The position numbers and the translations under genes were made by a program. From positions 1 through 45,004 of IMG/VR virus record IMGVR_UViG_3300040815_001568: a stretch of 45,004 bases of DNA; one strand, given 5' to 3'. This DNA is from a virus. This document shows positions 2,397 through 40,653 of this stretch, one piece after another. Position 1 is the stretch's first letter. Every line of letters starts with the position of its first letter. The notes beneath the pieces were generated by a model, which saw only the letters and a list, made by a program, of their open reading frames with translations, ran no database searches and was not told the origin of the DNA.

Positions 2397-4117
2397 CAGA
2401 CAACCACCCAAACTGAACCAGAATTGACCGTGACCGTGACACCAGAATCAATCGACACCGGCCCGAACGTGCCAGCGTTCTGCCCCGAAGTAATCGTGTA
2501 ATCAGTCGTCACCGACTGACCGTTCTCCCAAAACACCTTGTCGCCACCAGCACCCGTAGCACCAGCAGCAGCATCAGAAGCCACCCACCCGGAACCGTCA
2601 TACGACAACACCTGATCCGCAGACTTCGACGCAGGGTCTTCAATGAACAACGCATCCGCTTGGGCTTGCGTGTAAGTGTCAGCGACATTGAATGACGCGA
2701 ACGCCACCACCACCAGCACATCGTTCAACGCCGCACCACTAGCGAGCGTCACCGTGTTCGTAGTGGTCGTGTAGTCATCACCGGGCGAAAGCAGCACACC
2801 GTTCAAGAACACCTGAATCAGGCCGCTCGTAAACGACATAGACACGGCGTTATCGTCAGCACCCGAGAACACCGTCTGGCTTGCGGTAGCCGTGTACTCG
2901 TAGGTGACAATCGACGCGACCGAAGCGGCACTAGCCTTCAACCAGCCAGAACCGTCATAGACGTACATGCCGATCTGCTCAGCAGTACCCGTGGACAAGT
3001 AGGCGAGAGCACCAGTAACTAGCGGATCTCCGTCATTGTCGGTACTAGGTAGCGACGATTTGCTCCCGAGAAATCTGTCATCGAAATTATCTAACGCCGT
3101 CGCAGCGGCAGCAGCCGAACTAGCGGCAGCAATAGCGTCAGAGGATGCGGAACTGGCGGAAGTGGCGGCATTGGAGGCCGAGGTCGCAGCCGCACTCTGA
3201 GAAGCGGAGGCAGCCGAGGCACTACCGGCACTAGCAACTGCCTGAGTCGCAGACTCCTGCGAGTAATACTTCGCGGAATACTCCGACCCGTCCACCGTCC
3301 CGGTGGTCTTAGTCGCCCAATCAGAAGCCAAATCACGGGCAGTCTCAGCCGCCGTCTGAGCAGTCTCCGCGTTAGTCTCCGCAGTTTCCGCGTTTGTCTG
3401 AGCGGTTTCCGCAGCAGCCTGCGCTGCTTCCGCAGCAGTCTGCGCGGTCTGCGAATCCGTGGCCGACGAAGCACTAGCCGAGGCACTAGCAGCCGAGGCC
3501 GAGGCCGAGTTAGCGGAGGCCGTGGCCGATGCAGCCGAGTTCGTGGCCTGAGTTGAGGCCTGGGCAACAAAAGAACTACCCGATGTCTCAGCCCAATTCT
3601 TAGTGGCAGCATCCTGGGCCGAAGTCGGATCAGCAAGATCAGTGATCTTGTTCGACCCGGCATCCAAGTCAGCACCCAGGTCAATCGTCGCTGACGTGAT
3701 CGTTGGGCTATTCACCGTAGGTGAAGTCAAAGTCTTATTCGTAAGGGTCTGCGTCGAGGTGTCACCCACCACAGCCTCACCCAAACCAAGACCATGCACA
3801 TTCTCCGACGCGGCCTCATGCTGCCGAGACTCACGGAAATCCCGAGCTGAGACACCGTGCTCGACCTGAGCACCGACACTATGGGAGACAGCGGTAGTCC
3901 CGTCCACACCTCGAGTGACCGTCAAAGTGCTGCCGGCAACCGCCGTGCACTCCACAATCTCCTCATCGATGGTGTCGCGGTCGATCAGGATCGTGAAAGG
4001 AAACGTGGCAGGGAAACCCTGAGCCTGGTTGACAACAATGGTTGTCGCGCTCGAATCAATCTGCTGAGCCAACGCCGTCTTACGGGCCGTCGAACTGTAA
4101 TAACGGGATTGCGCCAT
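2396..4117 (-). CDS. Tail fibre protein with long Ala/Ser coiled coil
   Basis: 573 residues. Residues 1-100 (MAQSRYYSSTARKTALAQQI...) resemble the beta-rich anchors that bind a fibre to the tail. TLTNKTLTSPTV near residue 125 is a common tail-fibre repeat. Residues about 170-345 are a long Ala/Ser/Thr/Glu coiled coil broken by DLASDWATKTTG and DGSEYSAKYY, both typical of trimeric phage fibres. The C-terminal part is beta rich, with a fibre-like VFLNGVLLSPGDDYT segment, and ends in GSVWVVV. The second copy (43857-45004) differs mainly around 3120-3275, in the coiled coil. Part of the leftward tail operon, four bases after the connector gene. Confidence 0.85.
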   Translation of the reverse strand: MAQSRYYSSTARKTALAQQIDSSATTIVVNQAQGFPATFPFTILIDRDTIDEEIVECTAVAGSTLTVTRGVDGTTAVSHSVGAQVEHGVSARDFRESRQHEAASENVHGLGLGEAVVGDTSTQTLTNKTLTSPTVNSPTITSATIDLGADLDAGSNKITDLADPTSAQDAATKNWAETSGSSFVAQASTQATNSAASATASANSASASAASASASASSATDSQTAQTAAEAAQAAAETAQTNAETAETNAETAQTAAETARDLASDWATKTTGTVDGSEYSAKYYSQESATQAVASAGSASAASASQSAAATSASNAATSASSASSDAIAAASSAAAAATALDNFDDRFLGSKSSLPSTDNDGDPLVTGALAYLSTGTAEQIGMYVYDGSGWLKASAASVASIVTYEYTATASQTVFSGADDNAVSMSFTSGLIQVFLNGVLLSPGDDYTTTTNTVTLASGAALNDVLVVVAFASFNVADTYTQAQADALFIEDPASKSADQVLSYDGSGWVASDAAAGATGAGGDKVFWENGQSVTTDYTITSGQNAGTFGPVSIDSGVTVTVNSGSVWVVV

Positions 4118-4120
4118 GTC

Positions 4121-4996
4121 TTACCTTTCGTAGTGGGCGCGGATCGGGTTCTCTGCCTGCTGCTGCCGGCGAACTTCCTCAAGGCGCATCTGATACATAC
4201 CCAGCAGGTACTTACCTAGACGTTCGGCAGCCCCAACAGGACGCATATTTGCGGCAAAATCAGCGGAACTCGTCAAACCGGAAACCATCGGAACCTCCAC
4301 ATACGGAACAAGCCGGTATGCGGCCCCAAGGCGAATAACATCCTCCGCACTAGCCGGCAAGCCAGACACCGAGAAATTATCACCGGAAGAAAGCTGCGTC
4401 GGAGGTCCAGCCAACCGGACGTAAATCTCACGACCCGGAACCGGCTGGTCATACACGCTGATCTTCGAGCCATCCTTCGCATACGGTTTCAACTCGTAAC
4501 GGCGGGACGGCAACCACTCCTCAGACGGACCAACCGTGTCGAAATTGACCTTGATGACGTGGCGTGCATTCTGCGTCGTCAACGGGTAGTTGATCGTCGC
4601 GGCCGAGCTAGTTATGTATTCCTCGTACACGGCAAACAAATCCGGGTACACCGCGGAAATCGAATCATTCAACGCCTGCGCCACCGTGTGCCGCGGGAAC
4701 TGTGGACTCGAGCACACTCGAGTACCGCTCGCGTGCGATGCCGCCGTCGTGCCACGGAACCCTCGACCATACGGGGGGCACGTAATCGTTTGGCTGTTGC
4801 GGTCGATCACATCGACCTGCATGATCTCGTTACCAACCTCAACGATGCCTCGAGAAACCGCGGAAGCGTCATTGACTTGAAACGTCAACTCGCTCGAGTC
4901 AACCGGCTGCACAAGATACGTGGCCTGGTCCTGCTTCGTGCTAAACCCCGACAAGTACAGGATCGTGGAATCAATCAGTTCATCGAACGTACTCAC
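4121..4996 (-). CDS. Head-tail connector / tail tubular-like protein
   Basis: 291 residues from a GTG start that overlaps the stop of the small gene upstream (GTGA). The N-terminal half has beta segments around IMQVDVIDRNSQTITC and GRGFRGTTAASH, the latter frequent in phage proteins that carry an Ig-like or ubiquitin-like strand. The middle is acidic and aromatic (YPDLFAVYEEYITSS), and the C-terminal 80 residues are helical (LGKYLLGMYQMRLEEVRRQQ). Position between capsid and fibre genes and length fit an adaptor or tail tubular A-type protein. No diagnostic motif is visible, so the assignment rests on synteny. Confidence 0.55.
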   Translation of the reverse strand: MSTFDELIDSTILYLSGFSTKQDQATYLVQPVDSSELTFQVNDASAVSRGIVEVGNEIMQVDVIDRNSQTITCPPYGRGFRGTTAASHASGTRVCSSPQFPRHTVAQALNDSISAVYPDLFAVYEEYITSSAATINYPLTTQNARHVIKVNFDTVGPSEEWLPSRRYELKPYAKDGSKISVYDQPVPGREIYVRLAGPPTQLSSGDNFSVSGLPASAEDVIRLGAAYRLVPYVEVPMVSGLTSSADFAANMRPVGAAERLGKYLLGMYQMRLEEVRRQQQAENPIRAHYER

Positions 4997-5508: not shown

Positions 5509-6486
5509 CTACGGGTTGACCGCAATCGTGGACTTGGTGGTGATCTTGTACATCGCCTCAGGGCGGTACAGATTCCAGCCGGCGATCATGTGCCAACCTA
5601 GAGGACGGAACCTCTCGAGGCGGTCCACAACCGGTCCGAGCACGGTGCGTGCTTCGACTGCGACGGCCTCAGCGAGAGCCTGACGGCCCACGATGAAGGA
5701 CGAGTAATCGTCACCATCAACAGCATCCGTAGCGACCGGGCAGCGCGGGGTTTCCACGATGCTCGCACCGCCATAGACACCGATGGTCTGGCCGAGGATC
5801 GGCTCAGCACCGGTGTACTTGCGAACGTCCTCAAAGGCGTTCGGGCCGGAAGCGTTACGCAAGTCAAAGCCCACGTCCGGGTGGATCATCGCCGTGTAGA
5901 GCGAACCGTCCCGCGGGACAACGTTCGCGCCACGCAGCTTAGCGACGGCCTTGCGGATCTCCACACCGTCAATCTCGCCGTTAGTGCCCTCACCCGACAG
6001 CGTGTTGCTGCTCGAGTTGAGGACATTGGCGACAACCTCATCAATGCTGTCAGCCATGTTGTAGGCGAGAATATTTCCAATGCTGCTGTCGATGTCCGCG
6101 AACGCGGTTTCACGCGAGTACCGCGTGTTCACGACAACGTTGCCGTACTCCTTCAGGACAACGCTAACGGTGTCAACGTCATCCAGAGCAGCGGATTCCA
6201 CGTCAGAGGTTTCACTGAGTGGAGTGGTCGCCTTAGCCAGATCATTGTAGAGGCTAAAGGTGACCGCGTAACCTGGCATTGCCTGCTGCACCGGACGCTT
6301 ATCAGCGAGCATCCGGAACATGGGCTCCGAGCGCAGAGCGAACTCGACCATACGGTCGTAGGCCCGCTGTACGAGATTGTCGTAAGACGCTCCCGAACCA
6401 CCAGCAACGAGGCTGGTCGAGACTGCCTGAGCGGTCTTGATGGTTGCGCCGGAATTGGCCGCAGAAGTCACAAAGGAATCTGCCAT
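5509..6486 (-). CDS. Major capsid protein (N4-gp56-like)
   Basis: 325 residues. An N-terminal Ala/Ser/Thr-rich arm (residues 1-35) leads into NLVQRAYDRMVEFALRSEPM, then the spine region around AVTFSLYNDLAKATTPLSET and YGNVVVNTRYSRETAFADID, which resembles N4-gp56-type HK97-fold capsids. The P-domain part includes AMIHPDVGFDLRN, and the end is VEARTVLGPVVDRLERFRPLGW. Preceded by the scaffold gene and followed by a strong hairpin, which is the usual arrangement for the most abundant virion protein. Confidence 0.85.
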   Translation of the reverse strand: MADSFVTSAANSGATIKTAQAVSTSLVAGGSGASYDNLVQRAYDRMVEFALRSEPMFRMLADKRPVQQAMPGYAVTFSLYNDLAKATTPLSETSDVESAALDDVDTVSVVLKEYGNVVVNTRYSRETAFADIDSSIGNILAYNMADSIDEVVANVLNSSSNTLSGEGTNGEIDGVEIRKAVAKLRGANVVPRDGSLYTAMIHPDVGFDLRNASGPNAFEDVRKYTGAEPILGQTIGVYGGASIVETPRCPVATDAVDGDDYSSFIVGRQALAEAVAVEARTVLGPVVDRLERFRPLGWHMIAGWNLYRPEAMYKITTKSTIAVNP

Positions 6487-18838: not shown

Positions 18839-20677
18839 CTAAATTGGAATGCGCCGAGAAACCCCGGCACTCATGTTTGGTTCACCATTACGACCAAGAG
18901 AAGCAAGAAGAACGTTCAAGTCAGGGCGACCGCCAGGCCCCATGCCCTGCTGACCAGGGGCAACACCACGCATCGTGCCGTCCGGGTTCAACCCGTCACC
19001 ACCAAGCGCGCCACCCTCAGGCCCCATACCGGGAATACCACCCATGCCAGCCTGCGCGTCCATCATCGCCTGCTCCTCAGGCGTAGGCTCCGGGGGAGCG
19101 AAAGCGTCCGTCACCAGCTCCTCAATCGGCTTGCCCTTCTCGCGGCCCTCAATGATCTGAGCGACCCGCTCCAAAACCTGACCCGGATCTTGACCGCTCT
19201 GCGCCAAAGCGGGAATCGACTGCGCGTAACCAGCGATAGCGGTCTTGAGGGCATCACGCATCTCCTCAATGTCCACCATCTGCTCCTCCTCGCTCGCATC
19301 GAGCGCGAAAGGCATCTGCCGGCGCAGAAAATCACGACTAATCAACTTGTCGCCACGGGCCTGCAAACCAAACACAAGCGCACGGTTCGGGTCCAAACCA
19401 GCCATGAGGCCGTACTGCACGTCAACCGTGTGGTCACCCTTGATGTCACGGGACGGCCTGTACTTGATCTCATACGGGGTTCCGTCATTGTTACCCCGCA
19501 TCGTGCGCTCAATATCAGGCCACACGCGCTCATCCAGCTCGAGAGCCTTCGACACCAGCCGCTCGAGGGTCTTAGCGAACATCGCCTGACCCGCACGGAT
19601 CTGCGAATCAAAACCACCCATAAGAGCCTGCACACCGCGACCGGTCACAATGCTCGAATCAAGCTGCCCACTACGGGCCTCCGGATACCGCGACCCCTGC
19701 CGCAACTCCGCATCCAGCAAACCCTGCTCAGCGAACGCACTCGAGGGAACCTCAAGGGGGATACGACGCACCTTCTCCGCAGACGCGGTACGCAACACGC
19801 TATCCGGACCCAACGCGAGTTCCTGAGCGTCCGGAGGCAACACCAGCGGAGCCTGAACCGCCTTGTTAGCCGCCTCAAGAGCCAGCAAAGCCATACGCGA
19901 CTTCGCCACCTGAACACCGATCACGTCATCGAACTGGCCCCGAGCCTCACCATCAACACTCGGCCTAAACGTCCACTCCGCGAGACACATCTGCGCTGGG
20001 TTCTCCCACATCTCGAGAACCACGCCACCATGCTCCGGAACAAACAACGTGTTATGCGATGCGGTGTGATGACGAACAACCGTCAAACGGTCATTGTCGC
20101 CGTTACTCCAACGATCCTGCGGCTTACGCAGCACCCGAGCAGACTCCGGATACTGCTCCATGATCTGAGCGCGAGTCATCGTGTGAGCGAAAAACGCTTC
20201 CTTGACGTGACCCCACCGGTCACTAACCGGATACGACCCCATCGGCTCCATGAAAGTAATCCGAGGCAGCTGATTCTCCGCATCAACCTCCACCATCGCC
20301 GGCACGAAACCGTAAGTGAAGTAATGATCCGCGGCCACATACATCTGCCGGGCAAGATCAGAATGCTCCAAATAGCCCTGAACAATCAACTGCCGCTTCT
20401 CAGCGAACTTACGAGCCGAATCCGACACCGACTTAGACGACGCACAGTTGAAAGACGGTAGGGGAGCGAGCACCTCAGACAAGTCATGCGCGGCAACATC
20501 AATCATGTTCGCCACAATCCCCGACTTGAACGGCCCATCAGCGAACATGTCAGGGTAAACCTCGTTGATACGTCCCTGACGCACCGAACGAACAAGACTC
20601 ATACGCATATCACGTTCGCTATGACGCGCACGCAACTGCTCAAACTTGTGCGAAAGTTGTTTCGCGGTATCGCTCAT
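18839..20677 (-). CDS. Portal protein (T7-type head-tail connector)
   Basis: 612 residues from ATG 20677, whose first bases overlap the terminase stop (ATGA). The N-terminus (FEQLRARHSERDMRMSLVRS) and the strings GIVANMIDVAAHDLSEVL, YGFVPAMVEV and FMEPMGSYPVSD are typical of portals of podoviruses from aquatic environments. The middle carries the stem and wing segments; the C-terminal 100 residues are Gly/Pro/Met rich (GMGGIPGMGPEGG) and probably flexible. It forms the ring through which DNA is packed and on which the tail is built; this follows from the family. Confidence 0.8.
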   Translation of the reverse strand: MSDTAKQLSHKFEQLRARHSERDMRMSLVRSVRQGRINEVYPDMFADGPFKSGIVANMIDVAAHDLSEVLAPLPSFNCASSKSVSDSARKFAEKRQLIVQGYLEHSDLARQMYVAADHYFTYGFVPAMVEVDAENQLPRITFMEPMGSYPVSDRWGHVKEAFFAHTMTRAQIMEQYPESARVLRKPQDRWSNGDNDRLTVVRHHTASHNTLFVPEHGGVVLEMWENPAQMCLAEWTFRPSVDGEARGQFDDVIGVQVAKSRMALLALEAANKAVQAPLVLPPDAQELALGPDSVLRTASAEKVRRIPLEVPSSAFAEQGLLDAELRQGSRYPEARSGQLDSSIVTGRGVQALMGGFDSQIRAGQAMFAKTLERLVSKALELDERVWPDIERTMRGNNDGTPYEIKYRPSRDIKGDHTVDVQYGLMAGLDPNRALVFGLQARGDKLISRDFLRRQMPFALDASEEEQMVDIEEMRDALKTAIAGYAQSIPALAQSGQDPGQVLERVAQIIEGREKGKPIEELVTDAFAPPEPTPEEQAMMDAQAGMGGIPGMGPEGGALGGDGLNPDGTMRGVAPGQQGMGPGGRPDLNVLLASLGRNGEPNMSAGVSRRIPI

Positions 20678-23778: not shown

Positions 23779-23843
23779 CCCTCGAGGTCGGACGGCTAGG
23801 GGAGGCGACACAGCCCCCACCAATCAGGACAGGAGACACCACC
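23779..23843 (+). promoter_or_regulatory. Repeated intergenic cassette, copy B
   Basis: Contains CCCTCGAGG, CGGCTAGGGGAGG and then CAGGACAGGAG with ACACCACC before ATG 23844. The end matches copies A and C; the front part is shorter. Confidence 0.45.
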
Positions 23844-24035
23844 ATGCACCACCACACCACCACACGCACCGAGTCCCCCGCGGCCCGCCGTTCACGCCTC
23901 GAACACCTCGACCGGGAGGGACTCGAGCCGACGTATTCCCGCGGGCAGTGGTTCGCCGGCGCGGTAGTTGTCGTGATCTTGTTCGGGACCGCCCTTGGCG
24001 GGTTCTTGTCGGCACTCGAGGCGGTGACCCGATGA
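23844..24035 (+). CDS. Small single-pass membrane protein
   Basis: 63 residues. A His/Thr-rich start (MHHHTTTRT) and a basic stretch (AARRSRLEHLDRE) precede one clear membrane segment (FAGAVVVVILFGTALGGFL, about residues 38-56). Short tail. It overlaps the next gene by four bases (ATGA). Small early membrane proteins of phages are often involved in exclusion or host take-over; no evidence for either here. Confidence 0.65.
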   Translation: MHHHTTTRTESPAARRSRLEHLDREGLEPTYSRGQWFAGAVVVVILFGTALGGFLSALEAVTR

Positions 24036-24436
24036 CCGGCACAGATCCGATCCTCAATCCGTGCCCCGGCTGCAATGCGGAACCGGGGGAGCCGTGCCGC
24101 CCGGCGTGCCTGTCGTGGACGGACCGCACCGAGTTTGACTTAAACGACCTTGCGCGCCGCGTGTCGTCGCTAGGCGTGCCCTCGAGCGTCGAGCACTCCG
24201 GAGGGGACGTAGCGACCCTGTACGCGGGCTATTCCGGTTACCCGGAGGTAATCGCCGGCCCCGGTTGGTTTACCGGCCCCGGCTGGACAAATGCCCGCGC
24301 GTCTTGGGACGAGTTCAGTTACGGAATAGACGACGACAAAGAAACGGAACACGTAACGGACATCAGCCCGCGCACCCTTGACGCGGTAGCGCGTGCTATC
24401 GCGGAACTTGCGCGCAGCCTCGAGGCCACAACGTGA
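24032..24436 (+). CDS. Early protein with N-terminal Cys cluster
   Basis: 134 residues from ATG 24032, coupled to the gene before by ATGA. CPGCNAEPGEPCRPAC at residues about 10-25 is a four-Cys set like that of small zinc-binding actinobacterial proteins. The middle has GYPEVIAGPGWFTGPGW, and the end is helical (LDAVARAIAELARSLE). Its stop overlaps the next start (GTGA). Function unknown. Confidence 0.65.
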   Translation: MTGTDPILNPCPGCNAEPGEPCRPACLSWTDRTEFDLNDLARRVSSLGVPSSVEHSGGDVATLYAGYSGYPEVIAGPGWFTGPGWTNARASWDEFSYGIDDDKETEHVTDISPRTLDAVARAIAELARSLEATT

Positions 24437-24585
24437 CCCGCCTCGAGATCACCCGCACCCGTGCCGGCCGCTACCAGATCCGCAACGAGCACGGCCGCGT
24501 ACTGCACACGACCTCGAGCGCAGGTGCAGCACTCAAAGCCCGCGCCCGCTTGCAGCGCGCCGCCTACTACCGAGCCAACCGCTAG
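24433..24585 (+). CDS. Very small basic early protein
   Basis: 50 residues from the GTG at 24433 that overlaps the previous stop. Sequence plan: two short strands (LEITRTRAGRYQIRNEHG), then a basic Ala/Arg helix (ALKARARLQRAAYYRANR). The strand-strand-helix layout and charge suggest nucleic-acid binding, which is inference. Followed at once by cassette C, whose hairpin may end this transcript. Confidence 0.55.
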   Translation: MTRLEITRTRAGRYQIRNEHGRVLHTTSSAGAALKARARLQRAAYYRANR

Positions 24586-24592
24586 CGCGTGG

Positions 24593-24664
24593 ACCGTGGC
24601 CCCTCGAGAGTCCTCGAGGGCCCGCGGCCTAGGCGAAGGCCCTAGGAGATCAGGAGAACCCACC
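24593..24664 (+). promoter_or_regulatory. Repeated intergenic cassette, copy C
   Basis: ACCGTGGCCCCTCG, then a perfect hairpin CCCTCGAG (24601-24608), AGTC, CTCGAGGG (24613-24620), then CCGCGGCCTAGG, CCTAGGAGA, CAGGAGAAC and ATG 24665. It matches copy E (25917-25990) through most of its length. The hairpin could end the upstream transcript while the end serves the next gene. Confidence 0.65.
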
Positions 24665-25030
24665 ATGATTACCGCCCAAGACCGCGCCGCCCGCATGATG
24701 CGCGACAACACTGCCACGACCGTCTACGACGACGGATTGACGATGCTCGAGCAGTCTGCCGAGTTTGCAGCCAAATTGATCGACGGCGCATACACCGGCG
24801 AAACCAACATCGAAACCGCCGCAGGGCGTAGCACCCACACCGCCGAAACGTTCACGCTATCCGGTGGCGGCCCCGCCTCAGATCTAACCGTGATCCTCAA
24901 CGACGGCGGCGAGCCCATCGAAGCGTTTCACACCTACTACGACGGCGGGAAAACCGCGACCGTTTACCTAGACCGCGCCAATGCGAACGAAGTGTTCGCC
25001 GCCCTCACGGGGCTACAGCCGACCGACTAG
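24665..25030 (+). CDS. Early protein of unknown function
   Basis: 121 residues from ATG 24665, eight bases after CAGGAG. Helical start (ITAQDRAARMMRDN), then beta-rich from residue about 60: THTAETFTLSGGGPASDLTV, GGEPIEAFHTYYDGGKTATV. The body recalls small alpha+beta proteins that bind a partner through an exposed sheet. Flanked on both sides by intergenic cassettes, so possibly its own transcript. Family not recognised. Confidence 0.65.
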   Translation: MITAQDRAARMMRDNTATTVYDDGLTMLEQSAEFAAKLIDGAYTGETNIETAAGRSTHTAETFTLSGGGPASDLTVILNDGGEPIEAFHTYYDGGKTATVYLDRANANEVFAALTGLQPTD

Positions 25031-25048
25031 ACCCCGCCCGCCCGCGTG

Positions 25049-25128
25049 ATCCTCGAGGAGTCGAGCTCAAACCCTCGAGGGTTGCGCAGGTGATCGGACC
25101 GACCGACACCGGAACAGGAGAAAACCCT
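25049..25128 (+). promoter_or_regulatory. Repeated intergenic cassette, copy D
   Basis: Diverged copy. It holds CCTCGAGG and the perfect 14-base palindrome AACCCTCGAGGGTT (25070-25083), then GGAACAGGAGAAAACCCT before ATG 25129. Confidence 0.45.
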
Positions 25129-25479
25129 ATGAACACCCACCCGCAACCGACAGAAGCCACACACGGCCTATTTTGGATCGAGGACCCCGGCCACGCGTGG
25201 CTAGCGGTAGACACGCGCAATTTTCCCGATGCGCTCGAGTGTGGAACCGGCTACGGCTACCGCCGAGGCGATTTTGTCTACCTCGAGGAAGATCTCGAAG
25301 CCCCCGCCTTTCTCGAAAATCACCGGGATCTAGCGGCGCACGATCGAGCCGGCCACCTAGCGACCCGCCGCTACGACTTCGACGCACCCGTGCGCCATTA
25401 CAGCGCAAACAGTGAACGGCTGGACGTTGCCGCCTTCCTCGAGCGTAGGCGCGCCGCACAGCAGGAGGTCCAAGCGTGA
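25129..25479 (+). CDS. Early protein of unknown function
   Basis: 116 residues from ATG 25129, eight bases after CAGGAG. Trp/Tyr rich: GLFWIEDPGHAWLAVDT, then GTGYGYRRGDFVYLEED. The C-terminal half is helical and charged (VAAFLERRRAAQQEVQA). DNA-level use of CTCGAG gives Leu-Glu here more than once. The stop overlaps the next GTG (GTGA). Family not recognised. Confidence 0.65.
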   Translation: MNTHPQPTEATHGLFWIEDPGHAWLAVDTRNFPDALECGTGYGYRRGDFVYLEEDLEAPAFLENHRDLAAHDRAGHLATRRYDFDAPVRHYSANSERLDVAAFLERRRAAQQEVQA

Positions 25480-25640
25480 GCGACTACGACCGCCCGACTC
25501 ATGCCTACGTCGAATGTTGCGAACGCGTGCCGCTATTTGAGCGCACCACCCGCATATGGATACGCGACAGCGGTTATGTGCGCGTATGCCTCGAAGGAAC
25601 CGGCTGCACAACCGATCTAGACCAGGGGGCCCGGCGATGA
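25476..25640 (+). CDS. Very small Cys-containing early protein
   Basis: 54 residues from the GTG at 25476. It reads SDYDRPTHAYVECCERVPLF then TTRIWIRDSGYVRVCLEGTG: two beta hairpins with four Cys in all. Coupled to both neighbours by overlaps (GTGA before, ATGA after), which supports it being real. Confidence 0.5.
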   Translation: MSDYDRPTHAYVECCERVPLFERTTRIWIRDSGYVRVCLEGTGCTTDLDQGARR

Positions 25641-25909
25641 TCGAGAACGCGACCCGCGCCGCGTGGGAGGCCGTATTCCAAGCCCGCGAAACGCTCGCCC
25701 GCATCACTCATGCCGCCGACGCATGGACCGACCAGATGCAGCCCACCGACGCGGCCTACCAGGACGCGCTCAACCTGTCGGGCAGCGCGTGGGCGGCTGG
25801 AGCCGACAGCCTCGACCTAATGAAAGCGAGGACAACACCCGGCGAGATCGGCGCGTGGCTAGCCCGCGTGGATCAGATCGAGGCCGAGGCCCGCACGATC
25901 CTGCCGTGA
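25637..25909 (+). CDS. Small helical early protein
   Basis: 90 residues from ATG 25637, overlapping the previous stop. Almost all helix: AAWEAVFQARETLARITHAA, QDALNLSGSAWAAGADSLDL, IGAWLARVDQIEAEARTI, which looks like a three-helix bundle. Last gene of a three-gene coupled set; cassette E follows. Function unknown. Confidence 0.6.
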   Translation: MIENATRAAWEAVFQARETLARITHAADAWTDQMQPTDAAYQDALNLSGSAWAAGADSLDLMKARTTPGEIGAWLARVDQIEAEARTILP

Positions 25910-25916
25910 CCCCGTG

Positions 25917-25990
25917 ACCGTGGCCCCTCGCGCACACGCTCGAGGGACCGCGGCCTAGGGGAACACCTAGGAGAACAGGAGAACAAGCCA
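25917..25990 (+). promoter_or_regulatory. Repeated intergenic cassette, copy E
   Basis: ACCGTGGCCCCTCG, then CCCTCG (25925-25930) pairing with CGAGGG (25941-25946), CCGCGGCCTAGGGGAA, CCTAGGAGAACAGGAGAAC and ATG 25991. The closest relative is copy C; the hairpin arms are kept while loop bases differ. Confidence 0.65.
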
Positions 25991-26176
25991 ATGACCGAGA
26001 ACACCCCAGCAGAGTGTCAGTGGTGCTACCAGCCCGGAATGTATGCAACGTGGACCCCGCGCCACGGTTGGCACGACTTGTGCGAACGCCACCACACGCA
26101 AACCCAGCGCGATCTTGTAGCGCACCTAATCGAGCGCATGACCGAAACCGGCCGGCCGACCAGATCCCGCGCCTAG
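25991..26176 (+). CDS. Small zinc-finger-like early protein
   Basis: 61 residues from ATG 25991 after GGAGAACAGGAG. CQWCYQPG near residue 10 and CERHH near 31-35 give a C-x2-C...C-x2-H set around WTPRHGWHDL; the rest is a helix (TQRDLVAHLIERMTETG). Likely a small zinc-binding protein; partner unknown. Confidence 0.65.
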   Translation: MTENTPAECQWCYQPGMYATWTPRHGWHDLCERHHTQTQRDLVAHLIERMTETGRPTRSRA

Positions 26177-26320
26177 CTTGCGCCGATCCGCGATGCCGGG
26201 GACGCACGACGGCTAGCGCGACAACGACACAACCGAATATCGAGCAATGCCAGATTAGTAACCCTGCACCCGCTACCGTGGTGTATGTCAGTGAATAGCA
26301 CAAGCAAAGGTGGATTAGCG
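26177..26320. other. Spacer before the second early gene block
   Basis: No gene is seen in these 144 bases apart from a weak upstream ATG at 26285 in frame with the next gene. It lacks the intergenic cassette. It is somewhat richer in A and T than its surroundings near 26235-26265, so a promoter is plausible but not readable by eye. Confidence 0.35.
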
Positions 26321-26509
26321 ATGAGCAAACCAGCAATATCTATGCCCCTCGAGCACTGGCACGTCGTTGTGGACGCTATGGCGGTAGCCCTGGAAACAGG
26401 CAGCCTGTCCACGTTCCAGAAAACCAGGGTGCTGACGGCAACACGCCGTATCCATGCCGCCCTGCACACGCACGACGACTATGCAACACTACACCCGAAG
26501 GAGGTGTGA
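26321..26509 (+). CDS. Small helical early protein
   Basis: 62 residues from ATG 26321, preceded by AAAGGTGG; an ATG at 26285 has no binding site. Sequence SMPLEHWHVVVDAMAVALET then TFQKTRVLTATRRIHAAL shows two amphipathic helices. Ends one base before the next start. Function unknown. Confidence 0.6.
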   Translation: MSKPAISMPLEHWHVVVDAMAVALETGSLSTFQKTRVLTATRRIHAALHTHDDYATLHPKEV

Positions 26510-26510
26510 C

Positions 26511-26681
26511 ATGAATGGAATGACGGTTCTCATAGTGCTGGCCGTGTACGTAGTGTCCCTGATCCTGGCCCACCAGGACGGCAAACGGGTCGGAAGGGAG
26601 CAGGGCTTGTGTGAAGCGGAGGCCCGCCGCCGCCACCCCAGCAACCAGCCGAGCAACGTTCGAGTGCGGAACGTCCGGTGA
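26511..26681 (+). CDS. Small membrane protein
   Basis: 56 residues from ATG 26511, after the strongest ribosome binding site in the early region (AAGGAGGTG). Residues 4-21 (MTVLIVLAVYVVSLILAH) form a membrane helix at the N-terminus, followed by a basic cytoplasmic-type tail (KRVGREQGLCEAEARRRH). It overlaps the next gene by GTGA. Role unknown. Confidence 0.65.
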   Translation: MNGMTVLIVLAVYVVSLILAHQDGKRVGREQGLCEAEARRRHPSNQPSNVRVRNVR

Positions 26682-26845
26682 GTACGGAGATCCCAGCCGG
26701 CCACACGTCGAAGGTCACCTCCGGTTGGTGTACCACCGATACGCACGATGCCTGCCCGCAGCGTTGGGAGGTTGTGCGTCACCTCGAGCGTAAGAAAACG
26801 GACATCATTTACGGGGAGTGCATATGCGAATGCCACCACACGTAA
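26678..26845 (+). CDS. Very small Cys-rich early protein
   Basis: 55 residues from the GTG overlapping the previous stop. Cys residues lie in GWCTT, DACPQ and ECICECHH, a spacing fit for one metal site or disulfides. The middle is basic (RHLERKKTD). The 3' end overlaps the next gene by 22 bases in another frame, which suggests dense packing rather than a chance ORF. Confidence 0.5.
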   Translation: MSTEIPAGHTSKVTSGWCTTDTHDACPQRWEVVRHLERKKTDIIYGECICECHHT

Positions 26846-26964
26846 CAAAAGACGACCCCCGCACCGGCAAATGCCTCATGGGGGAGCACGACGAGTGCCG
26901 AGTGTGGAGTAGCCGCGGCCGCTTATGCGGCTGCCCCTGCCACGTTGAGGAGATCCCGTGGTAG
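26824..26964 (+). CDS. Very small Cys-rich early protein
   Basis: 46 residues from ATG 26824, inside the end of the previous gene. Cys positions: GKCLM, DECRVW, RLCGCPCHVEE, so five Cys and several His in 46 residues. Stop overlaps the next GTG by seven bases. Likely a metal-binding mini-protein; inferred. Confidence 0.5.
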   Translation: MRMPPHVTKDDPRTGKCLMGEHDECRVWSSRGRLCGCPCHVEEIPW

Positions 26965-27287
26965 GTCGTTTCACGCTACGCAAACCCGAGAAGCAACGCC
27001 TAGTGCAGTTGCTCATGCTCGAGCACGAATCTGTCGAGAACGCAGCGGAACGAGTGTGGACCGCGAGCCTCGAGGAGTTCCTGAAACGACCGATGTTCTT
27101 CATCGCGGTCATAGACAAGGGAGTCGGAGTGCATTTACACGGCCCATTCCCGACACGTAACGCAGCAAACAAGGCGATAGAGAAAGGAGAAGTGTTCGCC
27201 GCCACCCCAGGAAGCAACGGGATTGTGCTCGAGCTGTTCAGCCACGAGTACGACGACATTGACGACGAAGGGCAAGGATTGTGGTAA
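26958..27287 (+). CDS. Early protein of unknown function
   Basis: 109 residues from the GTG at 26958. Helical first half (KQRLVQLLMLEHESVENAAE), then beta: MFFIAVIDKGVGVHLHGPF, with NAANKAIEKGEVF after it. The end is acidic (YDDIDDEGQGLW). The middle (HGPFPTRNAANKAIEKG) recalls small actinophage proteins of unknown role. It overlaps the secreted protein gene that follows. Confidence 0.65.
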   Translation: MVGRFTLRKPEKQRLVQLLMLEHESVENAAERVWTASLEEFLKRPMFFIAVIDKGVGVHLHGPFPTRNAANKAIEKGEVFAATPGSNGIVLELFSHEYDDIDDEGQGLW

Positions 27288-27739
27288 CCCGATTTTTGTG
27301 TGCCGTATTTGCAACGGTAACCCTGCCGGTGGCCACCGCAGGGACGGTACATGCGGCAAACGAGCAGGCTGCGGGAGTAGCTAGCCGCTACGACGTTCCC
27401 GCACGGTACGTCACTTACGAGTATTGCGTCCGTATGCGGGAGTCCAACGGACGATGGAACGCAGTGAACCCGACCGGTAAATACCGGGGCGCGTATCAGT
27501 TCTCACCGGAACTTGCGCGTGGCGCAACGTTCCACATGCTCGAGGACATCATCAAATACTCGACCGCTGACAGTAGGACCGAGGCTCGAGCGATAGCCAG
27601 CAAGTTGCGCAGTATGCCGATGAACAAGTGGCCGGCGTGGGCGCAAACAAGCGCGTTCGTGCAAACCCTCGATGGGCACGACGCGGAGCAGCCTTGGTCG
27701 GGAAAGTTTCATTGGAACGGGGGACGTTGGTCATGCTGA
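27281..27739 (+). CDS. Secreted Rpf/transglycosylase-like protein
   Basis: 152 residues from a GTG start. Residues 1-25 form a signal peptide (RFLCAVFATVTLPVATAG, cleavage likely after VHA). The rest carries CVRMRESNGRWNAVNPTGK and YRGAYQFSPE, which match the resuscitation-promoting factor/transglycosylase-like fold; Glu54 is the likely catalytic residue. It would cut the glycan strand of the host wall from outside. It sits with early genes next to WhiB, far from holin and endolysin, so it is not an obvious lysis protein; wall remodelling, host growth control or superinfection are options, all inferred. Confidence 0.75.
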   Translation: MVTRFLCAVFATVTLPVATAGTVHAANEQAAGVASRYDVPARYVTYEYCVRMRESNGRWNAVNPTGKYRGAYQFSPELARGATFHMLEDIIKYSTADSRTEARAIASKLRSMPMNKWPAWAQTSAFVQTLDGHDAEQPWSGKFHWNGGRWSC

Positions 27740-28131
27740 TTGAGACACCTCGAGGTGACCATTGGGCTGATCGAGCGTTGTGTTCACAATCGGACCCGGA
27801 AGCGTGGTTCCCCGAGCACACGAAACTAGACATAAAACCGATGATGATCTGCCACACATGCCCGGTGATCCGCGAGTGCGCCAAGCACGCACTGACGACG
27901 CAACCGGAGTACGGAATATGGGCCGGTTTACCTATGCGCGTGCTCCGCGGCTACTACCAGCAGGCTGCCGACGCTGATCCTTTGACTCTCGCACAGACGG
28001 TGCAACGAGTGATCGGTCACGGACGACGGCTCCTGCACAGCGAGTTCGATGCGCGTAAACAGTTCCGCATACGCCAAGGCGAGCGCAAGAAGCAGAACGA
28101 GATGCGCCGTAAGGAGTTAGCTAATGCCTGA
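27733..28131 (+). CDS. WhiB-family Fe-S transcription regulator
   Basis: 132 residues from ATG 27733, overlapping the previous gene by 7 bases. Four Cys at about residues 17, 40, 43 and 49 (C...CHTC...C), AWFPEH after the first and the G-I-W-A-G turn at 61-65 are the WhiB signature. The C-terminal part is basic (RKQFRIRQGERKKQNEMRRK). WhiB proteins bind a 4Fe-4S cluster and the host primary sigma factor. They occur only in actinobacteria and their phages, so this gene is the best host marker here. It may redirect host transcription early in infection. Confidence 0.9.
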   Translation: MLIETPRGDHWADRALCSQSDPEAWFPEHTKLDIKPMMICHTCPVIRECAKHALTTQPEYGIWAGLPMRVLRGYYQQAADADPLTLAQTVQRVIGHGRRLLHSEFDARKQFRIRQGERKKQNEMRRKELANA

Positions 28132-28420
28132 CGTGGACCTAAAGGGAATACCGACGCACGAATGCTTGTGCGGGTGCGACACGTTCATAACGGCCGTGAA
28201 GTTCGATGACTACCATATCGCGTGGTACACGTTGCAGGGCAAATGCTACGCGTGCGGGAACATGGTGACGTTGCCGTGTGAAGTGGATCGGCTCGAGCCG
28301 GCAACAATCAACCTAACGTGCCCGTTGTGCGAGCAGGACACTGATACTCGAGTGCTGCAAGACGATGATCCGATCATTGCCCGCTGCGACCGCTGCACGT
28401 ACTTGTACGTCGCCACCTAA
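28124..28420 (+). CDS. Double zinc-ribbon protein
   Basis: 98 residues from ATG 28124, after AAGGAG, overlapping whiB by 8 bases. Cys sets at CLCGC, CYACG, CPLC and CDRC are spaced for two zinc ribbons. The sheet residues between (FDDYHIAWYTLQGK) are typical of ribbon strands. Last gene of the rightward region; its stop overlaps the end of the leftward sigma-like gene, so the two transcripts converge. Confidence 0.7.
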   Translation: MPDVDLKGIPTHECLCGCDTFITAVKFDDYHIAWYTLQGKCYACGNMVTLPCEVDRLEPATINLTCPLCEQDTDTRVLQDDDPIIARCDRCTYLYVAT

Positions 28421-29115
28421 TCCGAGAATCCAGGTTTACCGAGTTCCTGTTCTCGAGTCTGAGAGACAGCCGCCGCATTGCTGACAGCTTTGCGGCGGTT
28501 TCTCTTTGGCTGCTCACCACCTAGAGATCGAATGATCCGGTTGATAGCCCTCGATAACCGATAGCGGATCTGCCGGTTGGTTGTGTCGTACGTTGTGGCA
28601 ATCACGCTCACGTCCAGCCCGCCAGCACCGTACCGATCCCACAGTAGCCGCTTATCGTCTGGGGATAGTTGAATGAATGCTGAGCGAATATCAGCCCGCA
28701 TCGCTTCACGCTCGAACCCCTCATTAGGTTTCCGAGACTTGGACACGTACACGTCCATCTCAGCCATTTGACTCGGCTGGTATCCGTCGAGCACCTCCGG
28801 AAGAAGCTCCTCGACCACTTGTGACGTGTAGAAATAGAAATCACCAGGCTTGCAACCGGTTCGCCGGTAGCGTTCCTTCATCACGATGTTGTGCAAATGC
28901 ACCCGCAGGCTGGACTTGAGTAAACGACGCACCGCCGTATGGTTGGGGGAGTCGTCGTCCTCCCACCAGCCCTCGAGTTTGCGAGTGTTCAACAGCACCC
29001 ACTCCCAGCCTTCCTGAATGAGATCCTCGACCGGCAGTAGGTAGTGGTGCTGCCTACCAACCGAGGTCGCTACGGCCTTCACCGCTTGGCCGACAAACCG
29101 CTCCTCGATCACCAC
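28417..29115 (-). CDS. Sigma-factor-like protein
   Basis: 232 residues from a GTG start. DLIQEGWEWVL at residues 31-41 matches sigma-70 region 2. LSPDDKRLLWDRYGAGG followed by an HTH (VSVIATTYDTTNRQIRYRL, about residues 170-195) is a region 4 layout. The 125 residues between are longer than in ECF factors and carry a basic stretch (MKERYRRTGCKPGDF). Proteins of this plan are common in phages of actinobacteria. It may direct host RNA polymerase to phage late promoters. Last gene of the leftward replication operon. Confidence 0.75.
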   Translation of the reverse strand: MVIEERFVGQAVKAVATSVGRQHHYLLPVEDLIQEGWEWVLLNTRKLEGWWEDDDSPNHTAVRRLLKSSLRVHLHNIVMKERYRRTGCKPGDFYFYTSQVVEELLPEVLDGYQPSQMAEMDVYVSKSRKPNEGFEREAMRADIRSAFIQLSPDDKRLLWDRYGAGGLDVSVIATTYDTTNRQIRYRLSRAINRIIRSLGGEQPKRNRRKAVSNAAAVSQTREQELGKPGFSD

Positions 29116-31201: not shown

Positions 31202-31562
31202 GACCGTTCCACCTCAACAGGTTCACAAGTTGGTCCAGCGTCAAGGTCACTCGAGCTTCACCAATGCTCTTGCCTCGAGCCTTACGCACAACGCAACCGA
31301 TTGTGGGTACACCGAAACGCAGTTCGTGGTTGCACGCCTCAATGTCAGCCTCCCGAAGCCACTGAGCCATAGCGTCGGCCTTCACGTTCTTGGCTTCCAT
31401 CACCAACGTCACCGAGTCAGAGACACGCATGTCCACGTCACCGATGTCGTTCTTGCCGGCGCGGGGAAGTCGCCTGGCTTTCATTCCTGACTCGTTCAGG
31501 TAGTTCTCGAGGTCACTCTCAAACTTGGAGCCTTTGACCTTGTTGTATTTCTGCTGGGTCAT
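31194..31562 (-). CDS. Hjc-like PD-(D/E)XK nuclease
   Basis: 122 residues, ATG overlapping the methyltransferase stop. KGSKFESDLENYLNESG carries the N-terminal Glu15; GDVDMRV and VMEAKN give Asp42/44 and Glu57-x-Lys59. This is the layout of Holliday-junction resolvases and related small nucleases. It could resolve branched replication intermediates before packaging. It lies between methyltransferase and primase in the replication operon. Confidence 0.75.
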   Translation of the reverse strand: MTQQKYNKVKGSKFESDLENYLNESGMKARRLPRAGKNDIGDVDMRVSDSVTLVMEAKNVKADAMAQWLREADIEACNHELRFGVPTIGCVVRKARGKSIGEARVTLTLDQLVNLLRWNGLG

Positions 31563-32212
31563 TAGACGAAGACTCCCGCTAGCTGACGGCCAATGTGCTC
31601 GGTGTATGCGGGAGGAAAACCCTCTTTCAGGCTGTTCCAGGGGATCGGGCGATCAACACCCATCACTTCCCACCCCTGCTCGAGTGTTTGCACTGTCCGA
31701 CCACCCTTGGGAATGCTGTCACCCATAACGTGATAAACACCCCAAGGGCGACCCTGCCCCTTGTGGTCACAGCCCGACCCCTCAAGACCCATATTGGACA
31801 AGAACAAGCGATGCCGGCGAACACCCAAGCCGTAGGCAGATCCGCACTCCACTACCGCCTTTTCCATGCCTGGCGATCCCGGCACGTTTTCGACCACCCA
31901 AAACTTTTTGTGACTCCACTGGTCACGCAAGATCGCCAACGTAGGGGTAAGTAGGTCGTCGTATTTACTCTTTCCACCCTGCGCCTTTCGCAAATGCTTA
32001 GCTCGAGTGTGAGCCTGACACGGAGGGCTGGCGTGAATAGCATCAAAATCATCAGCCATATCACCGATCAAGATTTCCAGAGCATCGGCTTGGTGGAACT
32101 CATACGGATAATCCGGTTGAGGGTTTACATCTACACCGACAACTTCCCAACCCGAACGGGAATAACCATCGGCTGCCATGCCCGCGCCACAGAACAAGTC
32201 AAGAAGTTTCAT
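31562..32212 (-). CDS. Compact C5 cytosine DNA methyltransferase
   Basis: 216 residues, short for the family. Motif I FCGAGM (7-12), motif IV ASPPCQ (61-66, catalytic Cys65), motif VI VVENVPG (106-112), motif VIII VRRHRLFLS (131-139) and a motif X-like PPAYTEHIGRQL near the end are all visible. Only about 50 residues remain for target recognition, so the target may be short or partly given by the core. It transfers a methyl group from SAM to cytosine C5 in DNA. No restriction enzyme is seen, so it is solitary and probably shields phage DNA or marks its own sites. Confidence 0.85.
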   Translation of the reverse strand: MKLLDLFCGAGMAADGYSRSGWEVVGVDVNPQPDYPYEFHQADALEILIGDMADDFDAIHASPPCQAHTRAKHLRKAQGGKSKYDDLLTPTLAILRDQWSHKKFWVVENVPGSPGMEKAVVECGSAYGLGVRRHRLFLSNMGLEGSGCDHKGQGRPWGVYHVMGDSIPKGGRTVQTLEQGWEVMGVDRPIPWNSLKEGFPPAYTEHIGRQLAGVFV

Positions 32213-34189: not shown

Positions 34190-35032
34190 CTAACCCTCTC
34201 CCGCTGTTACTTGGTTTACTGTGGCAATCTCAGCATAACGAGATCCCATCGCAGAGCAATAGGGACGCACCGCACATGCCTTGCACAACATTCCCGGTGA
34301 CGGCAAGAACACTTCATTCTCGATAGCCCGCAACGCTGTCGCAAAAATCCGTGACAGATCCGGTCGTTCCGCATCGAGGTCGTGCATCTCGCCGGTGTTG
34401 CCTTTGCGGGACATGTAGTAGGCGTAGTGGGTGGGCCGAACCCCAAGGGTTTGCTCCATCAACTCCGCGTACACATGCTGCTGAATGCTGGTCGGTTCCT
34501 GCAAACCGGTCTTGATGTCGTACAAATGCACTTCACCTTCAGGGCTGACCATTACCCGGTCGATGTATCCGCGCACGAACACGCCACCGAGATCCCCGGA
34601 CACTTCCACCTCGATTGCGTCCCGGCCACCGGGCAGCTCGAGCCACCGCCAGCCGTTTGCGAACCGGCTGTCCCGCCAGGTGACGTATTCGGCCAGCATC
34701 GCTGGACCCTTCACTTGCCACCAATCAGGGTTTTCCTTGTTCGGGAACTCCTTAGACGCTCGACCGGTGGCCCGGATCTCCTCGGGGTTGGTGATGTCTT
34801 TGGTTTCTTCCCGCCACGCCTCAGCCCACGCGAGGTCGGAGGTTTGGTAGTTGCCCTTGTCGAGCCATTCGCTTGCGGTGTGGAAGGCCTTACCTCCGTA
34901 CAACGCCCACGATCCCGCGTCGGGGATCTTCATAACCCTGGTGAGGTAGAACTGCTCACCGCAGGTTGATAGTTGATTCACCGCACTAAAGCTCAAATAG
35001 CCCTTGCCGGTGATGTCCATCAGACTGCTCAC
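34190..35032 (-). CDS. Cas4/RecB-like exonuclease
   Basis: 280 residues. Cys24, then GKAFHTASEW (His51), GYIDRVMVSPEGEVHLYDIK (the Asp and D-x-K of the PD-(D/E)XK site), QQHVYAEL (Q-x3-Y) and, near the end, CKACAVRPYC (Cys250, 253, 259). With Cys24 these four Cys match the Fe-S cluster of Cas4/AddB-type nucleases. It probably resects DNA ends for recombination during replication. No CRISPR repeats are present in the window. Overlaps the preceding small gene by ATGA. Confidence 0.85.
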   Translation of the reverse strand: MSSLMDITGKGYLSFSAVNQLSTCGEQFYLTRVMKIPDAGSWALYGGKAFHTASEWLDKGNYQTSDLAWAEAWREETKDITNPEEIRATGRASKEFPNKENPDWWQVKGPAMLAEYVTWRDSRFANGWRWLELPGGRDAIEVEVSGDLGGVFVRGYIDRVMVSPEGEVHLYDIKTGLQEPTSIQQHVYAELMEQTLGVRPTHYAYYMSRKGNTGEMHDLDAERPDLSRIFATALRAIENEVFLPSPGMLCKACAVRPYCSAMGSRYAEIATVNQVTAGEG

Positions 35033-35538: not shown

Positions 35539-36000
35539 CTAGTAAACCGGGTCGTCCAAGATCCGTACCGGTATCGGATGCACCGGAACGTCCGGTAGGC
35601 AATCATCACACCGGTCGCCGTAGGCGAACCCCGCTTCGGGGTCATACATCACTACCGCGTCGTCGGCATCCATGCGCTCAAGCCAGGAGTCCAAGCGGGC
35701 TTCGTCGTGGTCGCTCAACGGGTCGCCGTTGCGCCGGCGTGCCAGCAGCCGCAACATGCGAACCGGGTAGTCCCGCAGGTACTCGACCTTCACCGTCCAC
35801 GGGATCACTTCGTTGTGTCGGGTCTGCCGCTGGTTCAGCCCGCCGCGGCTGATCGCCGCCGACACGGTAGCCCGCCCGATCTTGTGCCCGGTCTGCCGGC
35901 TGATCTCGTCAGCGATCTGCTGATGGGTCAGGCCGTCCTCGAGCATACGAGCCAGCTCGTCTTTACTCGGTAGAATCCGTGGTCGTCCGACCGTCCCCAT
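35539..36000 (-). CDS. HTH repressor-like protein
   Basis: 153 residues from ATG 36000, six bases after GGGGAGG. Residues about 14-52 form an HTH: ELARMLEDGLTHQQIADEIS then KIGRATVSAAISRGGL, with the recognition helix at the second part. The C-terminal half is mixed, with YLRDYPVRMLRLLARRRNG and a CDDC pair. Divergent from the integrase and next to a tandem operator, so an immunity repressor is the best guess. No protease or oligomerisation domain is recognisable. Confidence 0.7.
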   Translation of the reverse strand: MGTVGRPRILPSKDELARMLEDGLTHQQIADEISRQTGHKIGRATVSAAISRGGLNQRQTRHNEVIPWTVKVEYLRDYPVRMLRLLARRRNGDPLSDHDEARLDSWLERMDADDAVVMYDPEAGFAYGDRCDDCLPDVPVHPIPVRILDDPVY

Positions 36001-36186: not shown

Positions 36187-37185
36187 GTGCCAATTTCCAC
36201 CACACTCGCCAAAGCTCACTCCGAATACAGCGAAAGCCTCATTGCCAGGAAACTTGCTGACAATTCCAGAAAATCCCGGTTACAAATTGTTCGCCATGCG
36301 GAAAACCTGTGGGGCCGAGACTTCCCCCTAACCTCCGTGAAAGAAGAACACGTCAGCGGCCTGTTCGGGGAACTCGAACTCACCGAATCAACATTCAACC
36401 TGTACCTAGGAAACCTGCGATTGTTCTTCACCTGGGCCAGAGCAAACAACTACATGGCCGCCAGTCAAGACCCCGTAGCCGGCTGGTCCAACGCCAAAGT
36501 TCGCCGCCGTGACCCGTTTATGCTGCCCGCCGCCCGCTTCGCTGAACTCCTCGATGCCTGCGAGCACCCCAGAGATCGAGCCGTGTGCGCTATCGGCCTG
36601 TTCGCCGTGCCTCGAGGTGGAGAAATCTCCACCCTTCGGATCAAGGACGTGGACTTCGGTAGCGGCCTGCTGCACCTCGAGCGGCACAAGACCAAAGACC
36701 TCGATGAACTGCAACTAATGGTGGATCTGCGGGAAGAACTCGAACGCTGGCTGGACTACTACCGGTGGGCCACCGGGGGAGAGCTCAAAAGGGATTGGTA
36801 TCTCACGCCCCGTAGGGCTTCCGGTAAGTCCACGGCCACCGGTTTGTTCGAGTCTGAGGGTACGCACTTGTGGCCGACGCAGCGGGTCCACCACATTTAC
36901 GAGATCCCCAAGCGCGCCCTGCGCGCCATAGGGGTAGATGACCGAGGCCAAGGGGTTCACACGCTCCGTCGAGCAGGCTCGAGGGCCACCTTCGATGCCC
37001 TCTCGCAGCAGAACTACGATGGGGCTTTGCGGTACGTGTCCTCCATGCTCGGCCACGCCTCCGTAACGATGACCGAAAAATATCTGAACATTTCCTTAGA
37101 TCGCAGAAACCGTAATAAAGTGCTCGAAGGTTTCCGGCTGATCCCTACCCGACAAGGGGAACTACGCCTGGTGGAAGGAGGCTGA
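36187..37185 (+). CDS. int: Tyrosine integrase
   Basis: 332 residues from a GTG start after GGAG. The N-terminal arm and core-binding domain covers residues 1-105 (SAM-like, LTESTFNLYLGNLRLFFTWA). Catalytic residues: Arg143 (AVPRGGEIS), Lys near 168-170 (RHKTKD), His258-x-x-Arg261 (VHTLRRAGSR), His290 (MLGHASVT) and Tyr299 (MTEKYL). The set is complete, so it should be active. It would recombine the attP next to it with a host tRNA gene. Convergent with the late operon. Confidence 0.9.
   Translation: MPISTTLAKAHSEYSESLIARKLADNSRKSRLQIVRHAENLWGRDFPLTSVKEEHVSGLFGELELTESTFNLYLGNLRLFFTWARANNYMAASQDPVAGWSNAKVRRRDPFMLPAARFAELLDACEHPRDRAVCAIGLFAVPRGGEISTLRIKDVDFGSGLLHLERHKTKDLDELQLMVDLREELERWLDYYRWATGGELKRDWYLTPRRASGKSTATGLFESEGTHLWPTQRVHHIYEIPKRALRAIGVDDRGQGVHTLRRAGSRATFDALSQQNYDGALRYVSSMLGHASVTMTEKYLNISLDRRNRNKVLEGFRLIPTRQGELRLVEGG
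36278..36288. repeat. GGTTACAAATT, possible integrase arm site (2)
   Basis: Second copy of the 11-base repeat at 36021-36031, 257 bases away, inside the integrase coding region. Confidence 0.4.
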
Positions 37186-40128: not shown

Positions 40129-40363
40129 CTACGACATCCCCGTCCCATACGACCGAAGGTGTATTCGCAGGTCCGAATGGTGCAGAGGCGAGGCTTGTGA
40201 GAAAACTTGCAATCGCGGCAACCGCCGCCACGCCACCGACCGTCGCCCAATCAACGTCTGCAACTCCTGTCTCTCCCACCACGAAAAAGGCGAGCCCGGC
40301 CTGGGCTGCTGTCTTGACGGCTCGTTCTGCGCAGCCGCGCCAGAAGCCAATAGTCCACATCAC
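40118..40363 (-). CDS. Holin (r1t-like)
   Basis: 81 residues. FWRGCAERAVKTAAQAGLAFFV is the usual start of r1t-type holins of actinophages, then VDWATVGGVAAVAAIASFLTSL makes a second membrane segment. Short soluble tail. It forms the membrane lesion that lets the endolysin out. It overlaps the endolysin gene by 11 bases and the gene before by ATGA, so the lysis genes form one coupled set. Confidence 0.85.
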   Translation of the reverse strand: MMWTIGFWRGCAERAVKTAAQAGLAFFVVGETGVADVDWATVGGVAAVAAIASFLTSLASAPFGPANTPSVVWDGDVVDEG

Positions 40364-40653
40364 TTCAATCCCTCCACGTCATGCTCCAACTGTTCAACGT
40401 CGTCCTCGAGGGCAACCAGATTCGACTTCACCAAATCCATGTCAATCGCCAACCGGTCCACCTTCTTGTGCAGATCAGCTAAAGACTTGCCCCCATTAGC
40501 AGTCGGCTGAATCTGATACGTGGCCTCTTTGATCTCTTGCACGATTCGCTTCTCGAGGCTGCGGTTAGCCCACCGGACTAGGCCGATGACAATGCCGACT
40601 ACGGCAGCTACCCCGATGATGAGATCGATGTACGTGCTGAGCTGGTTGGCCAC
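40360..40653 (-). CDS. Membrane-anchored coiled-coil protein of the lysis cassette
   Basis: 97 residues from the GTG at 40653, seven bases after AAGGA; an ATG at 40686 would overlap a hairpin. One membrane helix (LIIGVAAVVGIVIGLVRWA) is followed by a coiled coil (LADLHKKVDRLAIDMDLV; LEDDVEQLEHDVEGLK). Proteins of this type sit next to holins in actinophages and may be second holins or regulators of lysis time. Confidence 0.7.
   Translation of the reverse strand: MANQLSTYIDLIIGVAAVVGIVIGLVRWANRSLEKRIVQEIKEATYQIQPTANGGKSLADLHKKVDRLAIDMDLVKSNLVALEDDVEQLEHDVEGLK

Follow-up and report, generated by a model that had tools for sequence, protein, structure and literature searches.

Genome and gene content

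The window, by which we mean the whole stretch of DNA analysed, is a virus record 45,004 bases long in which the start recurs at the end, at offset 41,461, and given this terminal repeat the genome size is about 41.5 kb. The two copies of the repeat (1-3543 and 41462-45004) differ by a 21-bp indel and scattered differences, and against contig L351 the repeat shows 99.7% over 2 kb; it looks as if two reads or two strain variants had been put together. Contig L351 represents the virus of the window itself (100%) and was left out as an independent case.

The phage was placed using the terminase large subunit (20674..22809, minus strand, phrog_38) and the major capsid protein (5509..6486, minus strand, phrog_1357). 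Its terminase, portal, capsid and replication genes tie it to the Streptomyces phages Manuel and FlowerPower (Beephvirinae). The core genes are 39-46% identical (TerL 45%, MCP 46%), but a megablast of the window gave no match. A WhiB-type regulator (27628..28131, plus strand, PF02467), which is an actinobacterial mark, and a tyrosine integrase (36187..37185, plus strand, PF00589) suggest an actinobacterium as host and an ability to lysogenise it. The gene content shows the phage to be temperate, and overall it is an actinophage with kinship to Beephvirinae. Other genes encode a sigma-70-like DNA-binding protein (28417..29115, minus strand, phrog_354, with TIGR02937 just under the cut-off) and a C5 cytosine methyltransferase of 216 aa (31562..32212, minus strand, PF00145). 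The structural operon contains a protein of 2,446 aa (10785-18125) that matches nothing in PHROG or Pfam. Relatives have homologues of it at ~30-46%, and it may be a tape-measure protein of great length.

The gene at 35539..36000 (minus strand) encodes an L5-type immunity repressor of 153 aa with an N-terminal HTH and a C-terminal domain. It has homologues in Streptomyces phages that are annotated as immunity repressors, and a search that used one relative as the query matched 172 records, all from Streptomyces phages. The AF2 model (pLDDT 83) had a single significant fold match in PDB, the cluster A2 repressor 7R6R (E 3e-4, prob 1.00). Next to the repressor lies a gene for a Cas4-family exonuclease (34190..35032, minus strand, phrog_1870), as in the phage Triumph, and the order repressor - Cas4 exonuclease - DnaB - RusA - primase - metallophosphoesterase is common to both.

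Excess of the palindrome CTCGAG

The preliminary description had reported about 100 copies of CTCGAG where base composition predicts about 14. We counted 103 sites, palindromic and thus read on both strands, between 3910 and 40557. This is a density of 2.5/kb and about 7 times the expectation, which amounts to 13.6 at order 0, in agreement with that description, 14.2 at order 1, 16.9 at order 2 and ~31 at order 3 of a Markov model. Shorter words therefore fall short as an explanation at orders 0-3, and the order-4 (maximum-order) expectation of 82-85 is circular, because the pentamers CTCGA and TCGAG are mostly created by the CTCGAG sites themselves. No other palindrome comes near: GCCGGC (2.1x) and ACCGGT (2.3x) are far behind, 24 of the 64 six-base palindromes are wholly absent from the window, and the remaining ones, when pooled, reach 0.40 of expectation.

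The excess does not depend on codon use. Shuffling of synonymous codons in 29 genes gave 10.9±3.0 coding sites (maximum 21 in 500 shuffles) compared to the 64 present. All three frames are enriched, with 27/18/19 sites against 6.6/1.7/2.5 expected from the shuffles, so both the claim that the word occurs in every reading frame and the proposal of a DNA-level cause outside codon use hold up, and codon use as the cause is ruled out. The flanks of the sites carry almost no information, only slightly above the control, which rules out a hidden asymmetric motif and indicates that the signal is the exact bare hexamer. There was no signal of helical phasing among the sites of the window, and an inspection of its gene starts showed no CTCGAG placed at start codons. 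A mutational origin of the Vsr (repair) type was rejected, as CTTGAG is not depleted.

Distribution of the sites along the genome

The sites lie in genes (91 of 103) and between them, as had been described, but not in all genes, since a stretch of 4,819 bp on the circle (40,558 -> 3,909) has none (p 6.5e-4). In the window this segment runs from 40558 to 45004 and on through the repeated end to 3909. It carries tail-fibre-type genes, mostly without homologues in the relatives compared, and is probably imported DNA.

The densest stretch, previously noticed at 23.1-26 kb, was found at 22.8-28.4 kb and corresponds to a block of small plus-strand genes beside the terminase (22810..28416), where 32 sites fall in 5.6 kb and 1.6 are expected. 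By gene models drawn by eye, the density in this block is 4.9/kb in coding and 8.7/kb in noncoding DNA, and late noncoding DNA has 0.85/kb (p 5e-4 for early versus late), so low coding constraint alone is insufficient to explain where the sites are dense. Four sites (23133, 23179, 23318 and 23360) lie in the noncoding DNA between the terminase and the first small gene (23133..23365), a possible early promoter region, and a pair 10 bp apart occupies a gap between small genes (24603..24618). We noticed that two gaps between small genes, at 24.58-24.67 and 25.91-25.99 kb, have a common element, CTCGAGGG(C/A)CCGCGGCCTAGG...CCTAGGAGA, which immediately precedes the start codon.

A similar concentration is seen in other CTCGAG-rich phages. 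In G001, 64 of the 105 sites are within 10 kb beside the terminase (p 3.5e-12), G008 has 16 in a single 2.5-kb stretch beside the terminase, and in L092 they are also piled up in the small-gene block next to this gene.

The word in related phages

Among actinophages, several of which were available as partial contigs, the CTCGAG count is bimodal, with either 0 or nearly 0 sites or a 3-7-fold excess. The word is missing in Manuel, FlowerPower, G004 and G340 (11-36 expected), in G015 and G016 (~5-7 expected) and in 14 of 15 Arquatrovirinae, with one copy in the remaining Yasdnil (11-36 expected). The window thus does contrast, as had been suggested, with the usual loss of palindromes in phages: most relatives have no site, with 11-36 expected in the clearest cases. 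Excess was found in three more lineages, strongly in G001 (105 vs 15.7) and G008 (37 vs 8.4) and to a lesser extent in G341 (78 vs 25.7). The richness of the window and that of G001 may have arisen independently. Two further cases were discarded, G022, where the excess is a minisatellite, and G021, where it is confined to one block.

Some relatives favour another palindrome. G004 has 23 copies of GTTTAAAC where 0.3 are expected (~75-fold), spread evenly, and G343 has 13 against 0.2; GGATCC or CTTAAG are moderately raised in others. G004 also carries GTTTACAC (11 vs 0.6 expected), which resembles the stoperator ACTTACAC. Manuel and FlowerPower, in which we detected no homologue of the window repressor, show just a 3-4-fold excess of AGTACT or CGTACG.

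Several observations concern the placement of such words. On the G343 contig L415, GTTTAAAC is placed exactly between the ribosome-binding site and the start codon (GTTTAAACAATG) in three adjacent genes (11631, 12044, 12233), and its one-mismatch variants are absent from the contig. In G012 (L175-L176), CTTAAG (41 vs 14.7) is partly found within the start-associated CTTAAGACAGGAG, and G001 (L164) has seven copies of the probably start-associated CCCCTTAGGAG (0.03-0.04 expected for 10-mers). Among Arquatrovirinae, phiHau3, Omar, Issmi, Jevington and Bowden have a 2.4-3.1-fold excess of GCCGGC besides their stoperators, which Celia and Verabelle do not share.

Between close CTCGAG phages, sites are retained about as often as ordinary hexamers (0.44 vs 0.61 for L083/G001, 0.85 vs 0.79 for L092/G008). 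In the early block of L092/G008 they are kept above the local hexamer rate (p ~0.02, small numbers), and outside it no better than ordinary hexamers. As for genes that might covary with the word, the small genes P0002 and P0003 have only weak or partial homologues and were not retained as candidates, nor was the sigma-like protein at 28417-29115 (51% to G001, 38% to G004).

The repressor as a candidate reader of CTCGAG

Our leading explanation, to which we assign a probability of about 35%, is that the CTCGAG copies are dispersed sites for a DNA-binding protein of the phage, likeliest the repressor, with a specificity that switches between relatives. The roughly 100 short palindromes would be the lineage's own recognition word, densest over the small-gene block. 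A sequence-specific phage protein, most likely the repressor at 35539-36000, would bind them and silence the prophage as well as superinfecting relatives, acting via site density more than via fixed positions. Relatives of other specificity would use another word, such as GTTTAAAC, and the whole set would be replaced when the specificity changes. Both the reading of CTCGAG by the repressor and the silencing function are what we infer from these patterns.

That the sites are read by a protein is suggested by the excess across frames and in noncoding DNA, by the concentration beside the terminase in three lineages (window, G001 and G008) and by the better retention in the early block of L092/G008. 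The repressor comes into question because the phage encodes an integrase and an L5-type repressor and phages of this repressor family have dispersed motifs. Arquatrovirinae with a homologous repressor have the asymmetric dispersed words CACTT[AG]CACA or CACTGTCACA; in Triumph these are mostly intergenic and oriented and can be recognised as L5-like stoperators. An intergenic motif search that recovered the Triumph motif as a positive control (score 14.8) gave nothing comparable in the window (best score 5.1), which leaves CTCGAG as the only strong dispersed word there and the repressor as its natural candidate reader. The GTTTAAAC copies at gene starts of G343, the likeness of this word to a known stoperator and the stoperator-like GTTTACAC of G004 also argue for the repressor.

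A near parallel is the immunity of cluster A mycobacteriophages (L5 gp71 and the TipsytheTRex repressor with their stoperators; PMC9283540, PMC6550527) and its Streptomyces phage counterpart in Arquatrovirinae. Like these phages, the window has a homologous gp71-family repressor beside a Cas4-family gene, an integrase of a temperate phage and many dispersed words which differ between relatives. However, stoperators are asymmetric and oriented, 13 bp (L5) or 9-10 bp (Arquatrovirinae) long, mostly intergenic and present in 8-26 copies per genome, and no asymmetric, intergenic, oriented dispersed sites were found in the window, where the word is a 6-bp palindrome with 103 copies, mostly in genes. 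The words of the homologous repressors (asymmetric, 9-10 bp, intergenic, 8-20 per genome) therefore argue against the repressor, as does the presence of CTCGAG also in late genes, in the integrase gene (36611, 36676, 36978) and in the repressor gene itself. The recognition helices of the HTH hardly differ between CTCGAG and GTTTAAAC phages, which is a further argument against it and eliminates the recognition helix as the determinant of specificity. The C-terminal domain could differ between the two groups, however, and cluster A includes repressors that share an HTH and yet differ in their sites (PMC6550527). Also unfavourable are the ordinary retention of sites outside the early block, the thousands of competing 6-bp sites that a host genome would contain, and the unrelated CTCGAG-excess phages, in whose incomplete contigs no homologue of the repressor was detected.

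Alternative explanations

The main competing explanation, which we rate only slightly below the first, is that CTCGAG is a modification-linked motif similar to HIP1 of cyanobacteria. The hosts would have an XhoI-type CTCGAG methyltransferase, so that the site would be methylated and escape restriction whereas all other palindromes would be removed, and a bias tied to methylation would add new sites. CTCGAG resembles a Type II site in being an exact 6-bp palindrome with no preference in its flanks, and bimodal counts, turnover near the neutral hexamer rate at a persistently high density, and the lack of sites in the probably imported tail-fibre segment all suit this explanation. We surveyed 296 Actinomycetota genomes, a species sample outside of which the true host may lie. 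The cognate XhoI-type endonuclease (PF04555) was present in 20 of them (7% of the sampled species), including the top three by CTCGAG/GAGCTC ratio (p 2.7e-4), and such enzymes are a plausible reason why other actinophages avoid CTCGAG. On the other hand, XhoI-positive hosts often have a low ratio (17 of the 20 lie at 0.24-1.8), and that of G104 is high because GAGCTC is rare and not because CTCGAG is in excess. In this genome, which has an XhoI-type endonuclease, we counted 56 GAGCTC in 2.3 Mb and 958 CTCGAG. No prophage relatives were found in XhoI-positive hosts.

The window shares with HIP1 and alternate HIPs a single palindrome in large excess, in and between genes, independent of codon use, without a known positional pattern, and replaced by another palindrome (GTTTAAAC) in some relatives. 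Every HIP genome has a methyltransferase for part of the HIP, and HIPs switch (PMC4390886). HIPs, however, belong to bacterial chromosomes with a matching methyltransferase and reach 1-2/kb, whereas the window is a phage with 2.5/kb, concentrated in one block, in which we found no matching methyltransferase. Its own C5 enzyme was rejected as the determinant, as its relatives (71-85% identity) are in phages with no CTCGAG against 6.0 expected in total, and a motif scan did not find a methyltransferase signature in the incomplete contigs of G001, G341 and G020. Moreover, exemption from restriction accounts for neutrality and not for a 7-fold excess, and the concentration of sites in early over late DNA is not predicted by modification.

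A further and more doubtful idea is that temperate actinophages have a phage-specific password spread over the whole genome. One short palindrome, kept at high density, would mark the DNA as self for the phage's own silencing protein, would be switched as a set along with specificity, and would be recruited among the words that host restriction leads other phages to avoid.

It seems improbable to us that the sites serve another DNA transaction of the phage, be it packaging, replication, recombination or compaction, through a different phage protein. The concentration beside the terminase and the density maintained without fixed positions would fit, but the relatives compared yielded no gene of this role that covaries with the word, and GTTTAAAC is evenly spread in G004.

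That the phage mimics a signal of the host genome, one of the roles proposed initially, or tracks such a signal found no support in the 296 genomes and is very unlikely. Their CTCGAG density is at most ~2.8/kb, and in hosts with a phage-like density the codon-matched control GAGCTC is high as well. Some inspected host segments have a 2-3-fold excess over synonymous shuffles (e.g. 30 vs 9.5 in G074), which is the highest we saw, lies mostly in frame 0 and is far below the phage level; Streptomyces hosts of related prophages have no excess. GTTTAAAC is also rare in all the genomes (at most ~0.04/kb, compared to 0.6/kb in the phage), and for these genomes we rejected mimicry.

A by-product of many avoided neighbouring restriction sites that funnel the sequence into CTCGAG is the least credible: the window is depleted in CACGAG (3 vs 33) and CTGGAG (2 vs 18), but frames 1 and 2, independent of Leu-Glu codon choice, are 8-10-fold enriched, neither depletion accompanies the excess in G008 and G341, and the ~75-fold GTTTAAAC in G004 cannot be a sink.

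Implications

Avoidance of restriction sites by phages is well documented (PMC6286503; for haloviruses PMC7230728), and the absent palindromes of the window as well as the lack of CTCGAG in most relatives resemble it, but avoidance cannot yield a 7-fold excess of one site. In the literature searched we found no description of a palindrome that is strongly enriched in one phage lineage and almost missing from its relatives. The pattern resembles a recognition signal that spans the genome and can be switched. If CTCGAG is linked to methylation, it would parallel HIP1, a word of still unsettled origin, in a phage whose small genome lends itself to testing. If it is the repressor site, L5-type immunity would be possible with ~100 six-base palindromes, and immunity groups would be readable from sequence.
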